From NCBI RefSeq assembly GCF_900101335.1, contig NZ_FNKA01000001.1, forward strand, positions 1,116,001-1,180,000: a stretch of DNA of 64,000 nucleotides, read 5' to 3'. Made by a program: the position numbers and the translations under genes. This document shows, piece by piece, positions 2,558-55,257 of the stretch; position 1 is the first letter of the stretch, and each line of letters opens with the position of its first letter. Under the pieces are notes generated by a model. It saw only the letters and a program-made list of their open reading frames with translations. It did not search any database and was not told where the DNA came from. Source of the DNA: Quadrisphaera sp. DSM 44207. GTDB lineage: Bacteria; Actinomycetota; Actinomycetes; Actinomycetales; Quadrisphaeraceae.

Positions 2558-4159
2558 TCAGCGGGTGAAGCGGGAGACGGTGGCGCGCAGGTCGGCGGCC
2601 ATGCGGGACAGCTCGTCCACCGCGGTGCGCGTCTGCGTCAGCGCCTGCGTGGTCGCGTCCGCGCCGCTGGCGACGCCGGTGATGGTGTCGGCGATGGTGC
2701 TCACCCCGCCGGCGGCCTCGGTGACCGAGCGGGACATCTCCGCGGTGGTGGCGGTCTGCTCCTCCACCGCGGAGGCGATGGTGGTCTGGAAGTCGCTGAT
2801 CTGGCCGATGATCGTCGAGATCTGCTCGATGGAGGCCACTGCGCCGGCGGTGTCGGCCTGGATCGTCTCCACCCGCGTCGCGATGTCCTCCGTCGCCCGC
2901 GCGGTCTCCTGGGCCAGCTCCTTGACCTCGTTCGCCACCACCGCGAAGCCCTTGCCCGCCTCCCCCGCCCGCGCCGCCTCGATGGTGGCGTTCAGCGCGA
3001 GCAGGTTCGTCTGCTCCGCGATCGAGGTGATCACCTTCACCACGTCCCCGATCTTCCTGGAGGAACTCCCCAGCTTCGACACCGTGCTGGTGGCCTGCTC
3101 CGCCGCCCCCACCGCCCGGGCGGCCACCTGCGCCGCCTCCGAGGCGTTGGAGGAGATCTCCCGGATCGAAGCACCCATCTCCTCGGCGCCCGCCGCCACC
3201 GTCTGCACCGAGTGCGAGACCTCCGAGGCCGACGCCGAGACCACGCCCGACTGCACGCCGGTCTCCGCCGCCGAGGCGGAGATCTGCGCGGCCGAGGCCG
3301 ACAGCTCCTCGCTGGAGGCCGCCACCGCGTCGGCGGAGGCCGCGACCGACCCGATCACCGCGAGCAGCGACTCCAGCGCGCGGTCGAGGGAGGCGGCGGT
3401 CTGCCCGACCTCGTCCCGCTGCACCACGCCGGTGGGCCGGCCGAGGTCGCCGTCCGCGAGCGCCGCGAGGGAGGCCTGCACCTTCCGCAGCGGCCGGGTG
3501 AGCGACAGCATCGTCAGGACGCACAGCAGTGCCACGACGAGGGCACCGACGCCGGCGGTGGCCAGCGCCACGACGGAGGCGCGGGCCGTGCCCGCCGCGA
3601 GGTCGGCGCGCTCGGCCTCGGCGGTCGCCGCGAGCACGTCCTTGGCCTCGCTCACGGCGCCGTCGGTGATGTCGTTCGCCGCCTGGATCTCCTCGTAGCG
3701 GGAGCGCGTGCCCTCCTGGTCGGCGACGGCGTCGTCGACGAAGGTGGTGATCGCGCTCAGGTACCCGCCGTAGGTCTCCTGCACCGCCGCGGCCGCCGCG
3801 GCCGCCTCGCCGTCCAGCGGGACGGCGGCGAGCTCCTCGAGCAGGGCCGTGGGCGTCTCGACGTCCTCGGCGAGCTCCGCGAGCTGCTCCGACGGGTCCT
3901 CGCGCACGAGAGCCTTGAAGCCGTCGACCTTCAGCTCGCTGGCGCGCGTGTCCAGCTGCAGCACCAGCGCCTGGGCGTGGTCGACCTCGGCGACGCGCTG
4001 GCTCTCCTCGCGCACGTGCGCGTTCGACACCTGCACCACGCCCGTGAGGACGGCGAGGACGACGAGGACGGCCGCCGTGAGGACGAGGAACTTCGACCGC
4101 AGCGAGCGGTCGGCGTACCACGAGGTCGGGCTCGGAGCGGTGCGCGGCGGTGCACCCAT
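2558..4159 (-). CDS. Methyl-accepting chemotaxis protein
   Basis: Transmembrane chemoreceptor (533 aa), first gene of the mcp-cheA-cheW operon. A short cytoplasmic N-terminus is followed by TM1 (about 24-43), a helical periplasmic sensing domain of roughly 150 residues rich in Ala/Glu, TM2 (about 194-218), a HAMP domain and a long coiled-coil signalling domain. The hairpin tip is well conserved ([20 protein letters not shown] then [11 protein letters not shown]), which is where CheA and CheW bind. The sensing domain looks like a four-helix bundle; its ligand cannot be told from sequence. The ATG has a GGAGA ribosome site, and a sigma-28-like promoter lies about 60 bases upstream. Confidence 0.96.
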
Positions 4160-24409: not shown

Positions 24410-26797
<2,388 letters not shown>

Positions 26798-27559: not shown

Positions 27560-27783
27560 CCCTCCGCAGCCGATCGAGGCGGGCAGCCCCGGCACCGAGG
27601 ACGAGACCAGGCTGCGGCTGGCCCTCCTGTCCGGCGTCGCCCGTGCCGCTCGTGGCCGAGGCGACGGCCGTCACCCCCGAGACTTGCCGTTCTCGCAACG
27701 ACGCTTGTCAACCCGCGGGGAGGCGGCGGACAGTCCTGGGCATCGGACGACCGCCGCACGGCGGTGCACACGGAGGAGGACGC

Positions 27784-28899
27784 GTGGTGGACCTCGATGC
27801 TCAGGCGGTGCCCACGGACGAGCCGGGCGCGCCGGGAGGGCGGCTGCACCAGTGCTACGACGTCGTGGTGGTCGGCGGCGGTGCGGCCGGGCTCTCCGCG
27901 GCGGTGGCCCTGAGCCGGGCGCGCCGGGACGTGCTCGTCCTCGACGACGGCGCCCCCCGCAACGCCCTCGCGCACGGGGTGCACAACTACCTGGCCCTGG
28001 ACGGCGTGGCGCCGGGAGACCTGCTGGCCGCCGGCCGGGAGGAGGTGGCCCGCTACGGCGGGCACCTCCTCGCCGCCGCGGCCACCTCGGCGCAGCGCCT
28101 GCCCGGCCCGCTGGACACCGCGGAGGGGGCCTTCGCCGTCACGCTCGCCGACGGGCGCGAGGTGCGCGCGCGCCGGCTGCTGGTGACCACCGGTGGCGTC
28201 GACGACCTGCCGGACGTCCCCGGGGTGGCCGAGCGGTGGGGGCGGGAGGTCGTGCACTGCCCGTACTGCCACGGCTGGGAGGTCCGCGACCAGCCCGTCG
28301 CGGTCCTGGGGACCGGCCCGCTGGCGGTGCACCAGGCGCTGATGTGGCGGCAGTGGAGCGGGAACGTCACCCTCCTGCGGCACACCGCGCCCGAGCTGAG
28401 CGACGAGCAGGAGGAGCGGCTGGCGGCCCGCGGCATCACGGTCGTCGACGGGCGGGTGACCGGCCTGCAGCTGCACGACGACCAGCTGACCGGGGTGAGC
28501 ACGGCCGACGGTCGGGTCGTGCCCTGCCGGGCGCTGGTGGTCTCCCCCCGCCTGCACGCCCGCTCCGGTGTGCTCACCGCGCTCGGCGTGGAGCCGGCGG
28601 AGATGCGCATGGGCGAGCACGTGGTGGCCACCCACGTCCCCGCCGGCCCCACCGGCGCCACCGCGGTGCCCGGGGTGTGGGCGGCCGGCAACGTCGCCGA
28701 CCCCATGGCCCAGGTGGTCAGCTCCGCCGCCCAGGGGCTGGCGGCCGGGGCGGCGATCAACGCCGAGCTGATCGAGGAGGACACCGCCCGCGCCGTCGCC
28801 GACCGGGCGCGCCGGGCCGACCGGGCCGACTGGGCCGACCGGGCCGGTCAGGCCGACCCAGCCGGCCAGGCCGAGCGCCGCGTGGTGGTGGCGCCGTGA
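27784..28899 (+). CDS. FAD-dependent thioredoxin-reductase-like oxidoreductase
   Basis: A 371-residue flavoprotein. The FAD motif is VVVGGGAAGLSAAVALSRAR; the redox motif CPYCHGWEVRD places a CxxC pair at Cys159 and Cys162, as in thioredoxin-reductase-like enzymes; a final FAD-contact block GVWAAGNVADPMAQVVSSAA is present. The NADPH site is GTGPLAVHQALMW. The C-terminal tail is a degenerate repeat of RADRADWADRAGQAD type. GGAGGAGG precedes the GTG. It overlaps the methyltransferase by four bases, so the two act together or are at least made together. Confidence 0.9.
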   Translation: MVDLDAQAVPTDEPGAPGGRLHQCYDVVVVGGGAAGLSAAVALSRARRDVLVLDDGAPRNALAHGVHNYLALDGVAPGDLLAAGREEVARYGGHLLAAAATSAQRLPGPLDTAEGAFAVTLADGREVRARRLLVTTGGVDDLPDVPGVAERWGREVVHCPYCHGWEVRDQPVAVLGTGPLAVHQALMWRQWSGNVTLLRHTAPELSDEQEERLAARGITVVDGRVTGLQLHDDQLTGVSTADGRVVPCRALVVSPRLHARSGVLTALGVEPAEMRMGEHVVATHVPAGPTGATAVPGVWAAGNVADPMAQVVSSAAQGLAAGAAINAELIEEDTARAVADRARRADRADWADRAGQADPAGQAERRVVVAP

Positions 28900-29630
28900 C
28901 GAGCCCCGACCCGACGCAGCACGCCGGGGCCCACCACCACGGCGCCGCGGGCCACCACCCGGGCCACCACCCGGGCCACGGCGGCCACGGCGGCGAGCCC
29001 TCCGTCGCCGTCCCCGACGACGTGGAGCGGTTCTGGGAGGACCTGTACCGCCCCGGTCCCCGCTGGAGCGGGAACCCGAACCCGGCGCTGGTCGACGTCG
29101 CCTCGCCCCTGCCCCCCGGCACCGCCCTCGACCTCGGCTGCGGCGAGGGCGGCGACGCCCTGTGGCTCGCCGGGCGGGGGTGGCGGGTGACCGCCGTCGA
29201 CGTCTCCGCCACGGCCCTGGAGCGGCTGGCCGCCAGCGCCGCGGCGGCCGGCCTCGCGGAGCGCCTCGAGATCGGACGGCACGACCTCACCGCCTCCTTC
29301 CCGGACGGCGCCTTCGACCTCGTCTGCGCCTGCTACCTGCACAGCCCCGTGCCGATGGACCGCGACCGGGTGCTGCACCGGGCCGCGCAGGCCGTCGCCC
29401 CCGGCGGGGTGCTGATCGTCGTCGACCACGAGTGGATGAGCCCGTGGTCGTGGACCGACGCCGACGCCGCGTCCAGCGCCGCGCCGCAGGTGCTCGACGC
29501 CCTCGGCCTCGACCCCGCCGAGTGGCGCACGTCCCGCGCCGGGGCCCCGCGACGGGGTGCCACCACCCCGGACGGGGAGGCCGTGACCGTCACCGACCTG
29601 GTCCTCGCCCTCACCCGGCGCGCCTCCTGA
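28896..29630 (+). CDS. SAM-dependent methyltransferase with His-rich N-terminus
   Basis: A 244-residue class I methyltransferase. Motif I is ALDLGCGEGGDALWLAGRGW, followed by VTAVDVSATALERL, FDLVCACYLHSP and GGVLIVVDHEWMSPW. The core resembles TehB-like and thiol/metalloid methyltransferases. The first 35 residues are unusual: about a dozen His with Gly, Pro and Ala (HHHGAAGHHPGHHPGHGGHG), a potential metal-binding tail. Its GTG start overlaps the stop of the flavoprotein (GTGA). Substrate unknown; metal, metalloid or thiol methylation is a reasonable guess. Confidence 0.9.
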   Translation: MTSPDPTQHAGAHHHGAAGHHPGHHPGHGGHGGEPSVAVPDDVERFWEDLYRPGPRWSGNPNPALVDVASPLPPGTALDLGCGEGGDALWLAGRGWRVTAVDVSATALERLAASAAAAGLAERLEIGRHDLTASFPDGAFDLVCACYLHSPVPMDRDRVLHRAAQAVAPGGVLIVVDHEWMSPWSWTDADAASSAAPQVLDALGLDPAEWRTSRAGAPRRGATTPDGEAVTVTDLVLALTRRAS

Positions 29631-29669: not shown

Positions 29670-30329
29670 TCACCGCGCCCGCGCGAGGTCTCCGGTCAGG
29701 TAGTGCTGGACGGTGGGCGCGAGGAGGGCGACGACCTCGTCGCGCTCGAGGCTGGCCAGCGGCTCGACGTGGAGGACGAACCGGGCGACGACCGTGCCGA
29801 GCAGGTGGGAGCTGGCCAGCAGCGCCCGCAGCTCGGGCCGGTCGGTCCCCAGGCCGGGGGCCACCTGGCGCAGGACGCGGGCGCTGAGGAAGTCGCGCAG
29901 CAGGTCGGCGGCCTGCTCGGTGGTCACGGCCGAGCGGAACATCGTCAGCAGGGGCGCGGCGGTGGCCGGGTCCTCCCACAGGCCCAGGTAGGTGCGCACC
30001 ATCCGCTCCCCCAGGCCCTCGACGGGCCCGGCCAGGACGGTGGCGACGCGCTGGGGCAGGTCGGGCGGGAGGTCCACGGCGGCGGCGAACAGGTCGTCCT
30101 TGCTGCCGTAGAAGTAGCGGATCAGGGCCACGTCCACTCCGGCGGCGGCAGCGATGGTGCGCAGGCTGGTGGCGCTGTAGCCGGTGGCGGCGAACTGCTC
30201 GCGCGCGGCGGTCAGGATCGCCGCCCGGGTGCCGCTGTGCCCGCGCCGGCGCCCGCTGGGCCGCTGGGGCGGCTCCGCCGTTCCCGCCGACCCCTCCTCG
30301 CGGACCTCGCCGGACGCGCGCGCGCTCAT
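29670..30329 (-). CDS. TetR-family regulator
   Basis: A 219-residue TetR/AcrR repressor. After a low-complexity start, the helix-turn-helix reads AAREQFAATGYSATSLRTIA then AAGVDVALIRYFYGSKDDLF. The C-terminal ligand domain (LTMFRSAVTTEQAADLLRDF) belongs to a common actinobacterial subgroup. It is divergent from the NmrA-type gene; a 32-bp perfect palindrome in the shared promoter region is the obvious operator, so it probably represses that gene and itself. Confidence 0.93.
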   Translation of the reverse strand: MSARASGEVREEGSAGTAEPPQRPSGRRRGHSGTRAAILTAAREQFAATGYSATSLRTIAAAAGVDVALIRYFYGSKDDLFAAAVDLPPDLPQRVATVLAGPVEGLGERMVRTYLGLWEDPATAAPLLTMFRSAVTTEQAADLLRDFLSARVLRQVAPGLGTDRPELRALLASSHLLGTVVARFVLHVEPLASLERDEVVALLAPTVQHYLTGDLARAR

Positions 30330-30378
30330 CGACCGCCTCCCTCGTGGCAGCGCCCACCGTACATCCCCACCTGTTGAC

Positions 30379-30410
30379 TTCTACGACTGTAGATATCTAC
30401 AGTCGTAGAA
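30379..30410. promoter_or_regulatory. Perfect 32-bp palindrome, TetR operator candidate, overlapping a promoter
   Basis: Positions 30379-30410 form a fully perfect inverted repeat centred between 30394 and 30395, with inner core CTGTAGATATCTACAG. A plus-strand promoter overlaps it: TTGACT (30374-30379) and TACAGT (30398-30403), 18 bases apart, serving the gene at 30478. AT content is far above the surroundings. Bound repressor would cover the -35 to -10 region. Confidence 0.8.
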
Positions 30411-30477
30411 CACCGGCTTCGGCGGCTGCTCGGGCGACCGCCCCACCGCCGGTGCGCAGGAGGAAGGAGAGGCCCTC

Positions 30478-31347
30478 GTGATCCTCGTGACCGGAGCCAC
30501 CGGAGCGCTCGGCTCCGCCGTGCTCGCCGGCCTGCTGCAGCGCACCGACGCCGCGGACGTCGCCGTGCTCGTGCGCGACGCGTCCAGGGCCGCCGACCTC
30601 GCCGACCGCGGCGTCTCGGTGCGCGTCGGCGACTACGACGACACCGCCGCCCTGGACGCCGCCGTGGCCGGCGTCGAGCGGGTCCTGCTCGTCGCGAGCA
30701 ACGACCCCGACCACGAGAGGCGGGTCCAGCAGCACCAGAACGCCGTCGACGCCGCCGCCCGCGCCGGCGTGGGCCTGCTCGGCTTCACCAGCCGGTCGCT
30801 GCGGGACGGGTCGGCCTCGGTGAACCCCTTCATGGGCGACTACCTGCGCACCGAGGAGCGCATCGCCGCCAGCGGGCTGCCCCACCTGCTCTTCCGCAAC
30901 GCCCTCTACCTCGACACCGTCCCGCTCTACGTCCAGGGCCCGCGCGTGTTCGAGACCGGCATCCGGCTGCCCACCGGCGACGGTGCGGTCGCGTACGCCC
31001 TGCGCCGGGAGATGGGCGAGGCCATCGCCGACGCGATGCTCGACCACGCCGGCACCAGCGCCGCCCGCGTGATCGCCGCCCCCCGCGCCTACGGCTTCGA
31101 CGACGTGGCGGCCGCCCTCACCGAGATCTCGGGCAGGACCGTCACGTACACGCCGGTCTCCGACGAGGAGTGGCTCGCCGGCGCGGTGCGGGCCGGAGTG
31201 CCCGAGCACCGCGCCCGCCAGGTCCTCGGCTTCTCCTGCGACATCCGCGACCACCAGCTGGAGGAGACCAGCACCGACCTGCAGGCGCTGCTGGGCCGCG
31301 AGCCCGCTCCCCTGCAGCAGGGGCTGCGCGAGGTCTTCGGCCTCTGA
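30478..31347 (+). CDS. NmrA-type NAD(P)-binding oxidoreductase (QOR2-like)
   Basis: A 289-residue atypical short-chain dehydrogenase. The cofactor loop is ILVTGATGALGSAVLAGLLQ, followed by VAVLVRDASRAADLADRGV. The rest follows QorB/NmrA-like quinone reductases (DYLRTEERIAASGLPHLLFR, NALYLDTVPLYV). The catalytic Tyr-Lys pair of classical SDRs is absent, as usual in this group. GTG start with a GGAGGAAGGAGA site. It is probably controlled by the divergent TetR in response to an electrophile or quinone. Confidence 0.9.
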   Translation: MILVTGATGALGSAVLAGLLQRTDAADVAVLVRDASRAADLADRGVSVRVGDYDDTAALDAAVAGVERVLLVASNDPDHERRVQQHQNAVDAAARAGVGLLGFTSRSLRDGSASVNPFMGDYLRTEERIAASGLPHLLFRNALYLDTVPLYVQGPRVFETGIRLPTGDGAVAYALRREMGEAIADAMLDHAGTSAARVIAAPRAYGFDDVAAALTEISGRTVTYTPVSDEEWLAGAVRAGVPEHRARQVLGFSCDIRDHQLEETSTDLQALLGREPAPLQQGLREVFGL

Positions 31348-55168: not shown

Positions 55169-55200
55169 GTGTCAACTCTTTGTCCTGACAAAGTGTCAAC
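55169..55200. promoter_or_regulatory. GntR operator candidate in the iolC/gntR divergent promoter
   Basis: CTTTGTC-CT-GACAAAG (55178-55193) is a perfect palindrome with 7-bp arms. It is flanked by a direct repeat GTGTCAAC (55169-55176 and 55193-55200), which on the minus strand reads as two TTGACAC elements, each a possible -35 box for iolC. A repressor bound here would block iolC and possibly gntR. Confidence 0.75.
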
Positions 55201-55257
55201 ACGACCGCACGGGTGGTCGCCCTGCCCGGCCGCGGCCGCTCCTGAGATGCTGGGCGC

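Follow-up and report, generated by a model that had tools for sequence, protein, structure and literature searches.

The window analyzed here is a stretch of 64,000 nucleotides in which two forward-strand genes, encoding a FAD flavoprotein and a class I SAM-dependent methyltransferase, follow a predicted operator (Table 1). Each open reading frame starts with GTG (27784 and 28896) and runs to its stop at 28899 or 29630, and GGAGGAGG stands immediately 5′ of the flavoprotein start. The open reading frames and the sequence bear out three points of a preliminary description of this DNA, namely the extent of the unit (27784-29630), its CPYC pair, and the four-base overlap between the genes.

Table 1. 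Features of the flavoprotein–methyltransferase locus, in window coordinates
Feature	Position	Strand	Basis
Predicted operator ACTTGCCGTTCTCGCAACGACGCTTGTCAAC, three TTGCC/GGCAA-type half-sites	27682..27712	+	PWM from 49 relatives
Putative -35 box (TTGTCA); overlaps half-site 3 of the operator	27705..27710	+	Sequence; seen by eye in several relatives; inference
Putative -10 box GACAGT, 18 nt after TTGTCA	27729..27734	+	Sequence; inference
FAD flavoprotein, probably of HlmI/DepH/GliT dithiol-oxidase type, 371 aa	27784..28899	+	Sequence, fold, no NADPH motif
CPYC redox pair (within HCPYCHG) of the flavoprotein	28258..28269	+	Sequence, alignment
Start/stop overlap GTGA, four bases, translational coupling	28896..28899	+	Sequence
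Class I SAM-dependent methyltransferase, 244 aa	28896..29630	+	Pfam PF13649, E 9e-17; AlphaFold pLDDT 87
His-rich disordered N-terminal segment of the methyltransferase, 10 His in residues 9-31	28920..28988	+	Sequence; model
SAM-binding motif I LDLGCGEGG of the methyltransferase	29127..29153	+	Sequence

The flavoprotein has the FAD-binding GxGxxG motif (GGGAAG) and the CxxC pair (CPYC) of an NADPH thioredoxin reductase, and both are invariant positions in the flavoprotein alignment; neither Cys of CPYC varies among the 35 paired flavoproteins aligned. However, the HRRxxxR NADPH motif is absent from it, as it is from HlmI, the other dithiol oxidases in the PDB, and the relatives compared, whereas the thioredoxin reductase of the same genome carries GGGDSA and HRR. 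The score against the thioredoxin reductase model TIGR01292 is 87.7 bits, far below the curated cut-off of 343. By sequence, the best solved relative is HlmI of Streptomyces clavuligerus (PDB 4NTD, E 4e-79; 46% identity over 322 columns, with the same HCPYCHG), followed by an Agrobacterium oxidoreductase and DepH. The AlphaFold model (pLDDT 91.5) likewise has HlmI as its top structural match (TM 0.91), and in a search with a profile of the 35 paired sequences, HlmI, DepH, and GliT come out above typical thioredoxin reductases. Nearest to this group by both sequence and fold, the flavoprotein is probably one of its members, with oxidation of small-molecule dithiols as the predicted activity; the missing NADPH motif and the closeness to HlmI favor dithiol oxidation over NADPH-driven reduction. 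The earlier label "TrxR-like" is thus right for the fold and wrong for the type, and the order of events proposed with it, reduction followed by methylation, is probably backwards. Unlike the window flavoprotein, HlmI is encoded in the biosynthetic cluster for holomycin, and to our knowledge it has no methyltransferase fusion or pairing. In the flavoprotein tree, the main clade of flavoproteins from pairs does not include HlmI, so the substrate of the window enzyme may differ from that of HlmI.

For the methyltransferase, the solved folds nearest to the AlphaFold model are TehB, the 4NEC enzyme (which we take to be Ecm18), which turns a disulfide into a thioacetal during the biosynthesis of echinomycin, and Rv0560c, a heterocyclic-toxin methyltransferase; thiol methyltransferase 1 and, again, Rv0560c are among its profile matches. 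TehB shares the class I fold and supplies top structural matches, but it has ~19% identity to the window enzyme and belongs to a different operon, and we know of no His-rich tail on TehB. Scores against the curated TehB models fall well short of their cut-offs (NF008405, 48.6 bits versus 218; TIGR00477, 32.2 versus 219.5), as does that against the ArsM-type model NF041537 (30.3 versus 510); the cut-off of Pfam PF03848 is passed (29.6 versus 20.4), but across 55 residues only. "TehB-like" was therefore too loose a name for a generic class I enzyme, although TehB is indeed one of the closest solved folds. Scores against the window protein are similar for TehB, heterocyclic-toxin, and halide/thiol methyltransferases; the protein resembles many class I enzymes, so its sequence does not establish S-methylation. 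The proximity of Rv0560c, in fold and in profile matches, and a regulator of generic xenobiotic type (see below) would suit an alternative in which the methyltransferase O- or N-methylates non-sulfur xenobiotics such as hydroxyquinolines, hydroquinones, or phenols, with the flavoprotein acting on a partner that resembles a quinone. We consider this highly doubtful, since the CPYC pair, invariant in the family, is a sign that the flavoprotein half carries out dithiol/disulfide chemistry.

The first 35 residues of the methyltransferase contain 10 His, slightly fewer than the dozen first reported, and every one is encoded by CAC; residues 1-30 have a model pLDDT of 51-57 and are predicted to be disordered. 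Of the 12 genomes in the family with the pair, 11 have a His-rich N-terminus. Outside the family the segment is sporadic and missing from most pairs, but where present it occupies the same junction, in some cases as a fusion linker, and it accounts for ~7 changes on the flavoprotein tree (a quick tree with many weak branches). This recurrence, in same-family genomes and at other loci, rules out an oddity of one genome. Within one fused flavoprotein–methyltransferase (locus L182 of genome G061, ~3125-3400), the linker has 16 His in 59 residues (HDHDHDHGHGHGHGHGHGH), encoded by both CAC and CAT. Histidine is also fairly frequent in the body of the methyltransferase: across 71 loci, 16 junctions versus 28 methyltransferase bodies reached 4 or more His per 25 residues, a threshold that did not single out the junction, whereas at least 8 per 25 occurred in 7 junctions and in none of the bodies, so that only the strong clusters are distinctive. 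As a family-level and otherwise sporadic trait, the tail is not essential to the flavoprotein–methyltransferase unit; metal binding by it is plausible.

The His-rich segment bears on one of the purposes originally suggested for the locus, a unit handling metals or metalloids in which the flavoprotein would reduce tellurite, selenite, or a metal–thiol complex, the methyltransferase would form a volatile product, and the tail would bind metal. The TehB structures at the top of the fold matches, the return of the segment to the same junction, and three conserved residues in the regulator's cupin (H124, E128, and H162) that could hold a metal are consistent with this proposal. Conversely, a flavoprotein devoid of the NADPH motif is unlikely to carry out the reduction, the NCBIfam cut-offs for TehB and ArsM are far from reached, most pairs lack the tail, and the flanks scanned contain neither a metal exporter nor an ArsR/MerR-type regulator. 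We judge a metal or metalloid unit quite unlikely. The missing NADPH motif and the unreached curated cut-offs rule out the TrxR/TehB metal reading as the main explanation, and it gains no support from the neighboring genes or the type of regulator.

To place the pair in a wider context, we surveyed genomes of the same family and the same class. The flavoprotein is present in 12 of 13 same-family genomes, and in all 12 the methyltransferase lies directly downstream. Of 197 genomes drawn evenly from the class, with the window's own genome left out (thresholds, E ≤ 1e-50 for the flavoprotein and E ≤ 1e-25 for the methyltransferase), 98 have the flavoprotein, 96 the methyltransferase, and 67 both. 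In 36 of these 67 genomes, spanning 11 families, the two genes are neighbors on one strand with the flavoprotein gene leading (~600 bases separate the genes in one case), and no other arrangement of the two within 3 kb was found among the 67. A further 31 and 29 genomes have only one of the two genes, which counts against the dithiol unit proposed below. The mosaic presence across genomes also argues against a housekeeping role, and thus against an endogenous thiol valve in which the pair would oxidize or methylate surplus low-molecular-weight thiols, persulfides, or H2S during sulfur overload. The match to thiol methyltransferase 1 fits such a valve, as does one solo methyltransferase of Rhodococcus that adjoins rhodanese, DsrE, and TauE/SafE genes; however, the Rhodococcus locus is without the operator and without an XRE-cupin gene and may represent another subfamily. 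Overall, we regard the endogenous valve as unlikely.

The 71 paired loci examined are a nonrandom set, since 25 of them were collected by searching for close relatives of the methyltransferase and one locus appears twice. In 34 of the 71, one open reading frame spans both domains; of the 37 unfused pairs, 26 have the four-base overlap found in the window. The flavoprotein tree, quickly built and with many weak branches, implies ~13 changes between fused and separate states, indicating that fusion or fission recurred. Recurrent fusion of the two enzymes is strong evidence for a common substrate or pathway, and together with the adjacency conserved in family and class it rules out chance neighbors. 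The idea of a compact, functionally coupled unit, probably for a reactive thiol, is therefore supported by conservation, adjacency, and fusions, and the conservation of both the pair and the tail removes two of the three objections anticipated in the preliminary description. In the openly licensed literature we found neither the pair nor the fusion nor the link to the regulator described, in agreement with the initial impression that no system with exactly this pair had been described. We know of no study of such fusions, to which the NCBI pipeline presumably gives the product name "bifunctional oxidoreductase/methyltransferase." All-against-all clustering of open reading frames for conserved neighbors returned mostly antisense artefacts. 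The genes for IGPD, CutC, HbpS, a class II tRNA synthetase, GntP, MMPL, and a CN hydrolase are varying neighbors and not part of the unit.

Codon-scored gene calls combined with Pfam revealed an XRE-cupin regulator gene (HTH_3 plus Cupin_2, ~190 residues) near 56 of the 71 paired loci; in nearly all 56 it lies directly 5′ of the flavoprotein gene in divergent orientation, and many solo methyltransferases and solo flavoproteins likewise have a divergent regulator gene beside them. The regulator has no conserved Cys. The window itself contains no such regulator gene, adjacent or otherwise; the closest homologue in the same genome (C1:365537-366112, 70% identity) adjoins a paralogue of the methyltransferase, and the regulator of the window pair is likely an XRE-cupin protein encoded elsewhere in the genome. 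At another site in this genome (C1:1053404-1055576), a further methyltransferase homologue lies by two same-strand XRE-cupin-like genes and a weak operator (10.8 bits).

The regulator/flavoprotein intergenic regions of relatives share an operator with the consensus tTTGCc-n5-gGCAA-n6-TTG.CAa (TTGCC-n5-GGCAA-n6-TTGnCA), present in 49 of 50; the commonest dyad occurs in 42 intergenic regions versus 6 in shuffled sequence. The window operator matches this site and ends 72 nt before the flavoprotein start, within the ~160 nt upstream of a gene that we took to mark a regulon member. On the window the PWM finds one site, at 34.1 bits, with the next best in 64 kb at -1.35 and a best score of 4.6 bits in five shuffled windows. 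The site is the genome's only match of the consensus pattern with 0 mismatches; the locus of the regulator and methyltransferase paralogue has a weaker operator (23.7 bits). We also applied the PWM to 20 pairs that lack an immediately adjacent regulator (a few have one further off), none of which had contributed to the matrix. Of the 20, 19 have a site scoring above 18 bits, mostly ≤160 nt ahead of the flavoprotein, and the lone exception has just 107 bases of upstream sequence. Among the solo loci scanned, nearly all flavoproteins have the operator, as do most methyltransferases, usually in a weaker form. The association of an XRE-cupin gene with most pairs and the single shared operator are new observations. 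The third half-site, TTGTCA, is a plausible -35 box, suggesting repression, and the relatives have a putative -10 box (GATAGT, CATAGT, or GACAGT) at similar spacing.

The common operator points to the XRE-cupin protein, rather than a TetR protein, as the regulator. The TetR gene at 29670-30329 was rejected as a candidate, given that among the Pfam-scanned neighbors of relatives a TetR gene adjoins the pair only in locus L183. Just downstream of the pair (29670-31347), this divergent TetR gene and a gene for an NmrA-like NAD(P)-binding protein have an ordinary regulator/target layout, outside the unit. Elsewhere in the window, an AT-richer site on the reverse strand (55171-55201, TGTTGACACTTTGTCAGGACAAAGAGTTGAC) has a palindrome-like repeat and matches the operator weakly (-3.9 bits). 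Also on the reverse strand, 24410-26740 encodes a UvrA-like ABC protein of ~780 aa, before the long frame runs on under a LysE gene. It is a short UvrA paralogue; paralogues of this kind are sometimes linked to drug resistance.

We propose that the pair is an inducible detoxification unit that oxidizes or S-methylates small-molecule dithiols, a function to which we assign an even chance. Candidate substrates would be reduced epidithiodioxopiperazines, dithiolopyrrolones, and sulfur compounds of similar kind that redox-cycle and chelate metals. A repressor of the XRE-cupin type would sit on the operator at 27682-27712, over the -35 box, until an effector releases it. The flavoprotein, through CPYC and FAD, would then oxidize the dithiol to a disulfide that is less reactive and can be exported, and would hand the electrons to O2 or a different acceptor rather than draw them from NADPH. 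The translationally coupled methyltransferase would irreversibly cap the same dithiol as S-methyl thioethers. The His-rich segment, whether tail or fusion linker, probably binds Zn, Cu, or Ni and may accept metal freed from a dithiol chelate. Points against the proposal are that the flanks examined revealed no biosynthetic cluster for such toxins and that most pairs outside the family lack the His tail. A second HlmI-like flavoprotein of this genome (49% identity; locus L216, C2:577000-583000) lies just downstream of a gene of the MFS drug-exporter type, which would fit export of the disulfide form; it has no adjacent methyltransferase and no good operator.

Known dithiol systems offer precedents for both halves of the proposed unit. 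HlmI catalyzes the O2-dependent oxidation of reduced holomycin, and S-methylated intermediates accumulate in an hlmI mutant (PMC3826145). Aspergillus fumigatus needs both GliT, its gliotoxin oxidase, and the S-methyltransferase (bis-thiomethyltransferase) GtmA, the double mutant being the most sensitive to gliotoxin (PMC5356443). S-methylation in the hlmI mutant and the joint need for GliT and GtmA set a precedent for an oxidize-or-methylate strategy. The window pair is expected to direct the same two activities at one dithiol, and we liken it to GliT and GtmA by this expected activity alone, not by kinship of the methyltransferases. Fungal gtmA is a separate gene outside the gli cluster, whereas the bacterial genes are coupled or fused and have their own regulator. 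A bacterial precedent is DnoP (PA4170) of Pseudomonas aeruginosa, a stand-alone dithiol oxidase of TrxR fold that can protect this nonproducer against gliotoxin and related toxins (PMC11317636). Unlike the window flavoprotein, DnoP belongs to the DepH group and is induced by zinc starvation, and it is not known to have a coupled methyltransferase. Gliotoxin also disturbs zinc homeostasis (PMC11317636), which allows us to speculate on a link to the His-rich segment.

Taken further, these findings lead us to suggest, tentatively and with confidence somewhat short of even, an undescribed regulon extending across the Actinomycetota, mycobacteria included. It would comprise an XRE-cupin repressor, a three-half-site operator, and a dithiol oxidase and methyltransferase repeatedly fused into a bifunctional "oxidize or S-methylate" enzyme, with His-rich metal-binding linkers gained repeatedly, and it would give nonproducing soil bacteria resistance to thiol-active, zinc-chelating antibiotics. 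If the proposed function is right, the unit would represent a general bacterial route of resistance to disulfide and dithiol natural products of the gliotoxin, holomycin, and thiolutin types, outside biosynthetic clusters, and its members would be predictable in any actinobacterial genome from one operator and one regulator. S. clavuligerus, which produces holomycin, has a methyltransferase of the window family, with a 30.6-bit operator, on the megaplasmid pF1D18A (locus L173, 5813-6609). The enzyme that forms the S-methylated holomycin intermediates was not found identified in the literature, and this plasmid-borne methyltransferase could be their source.
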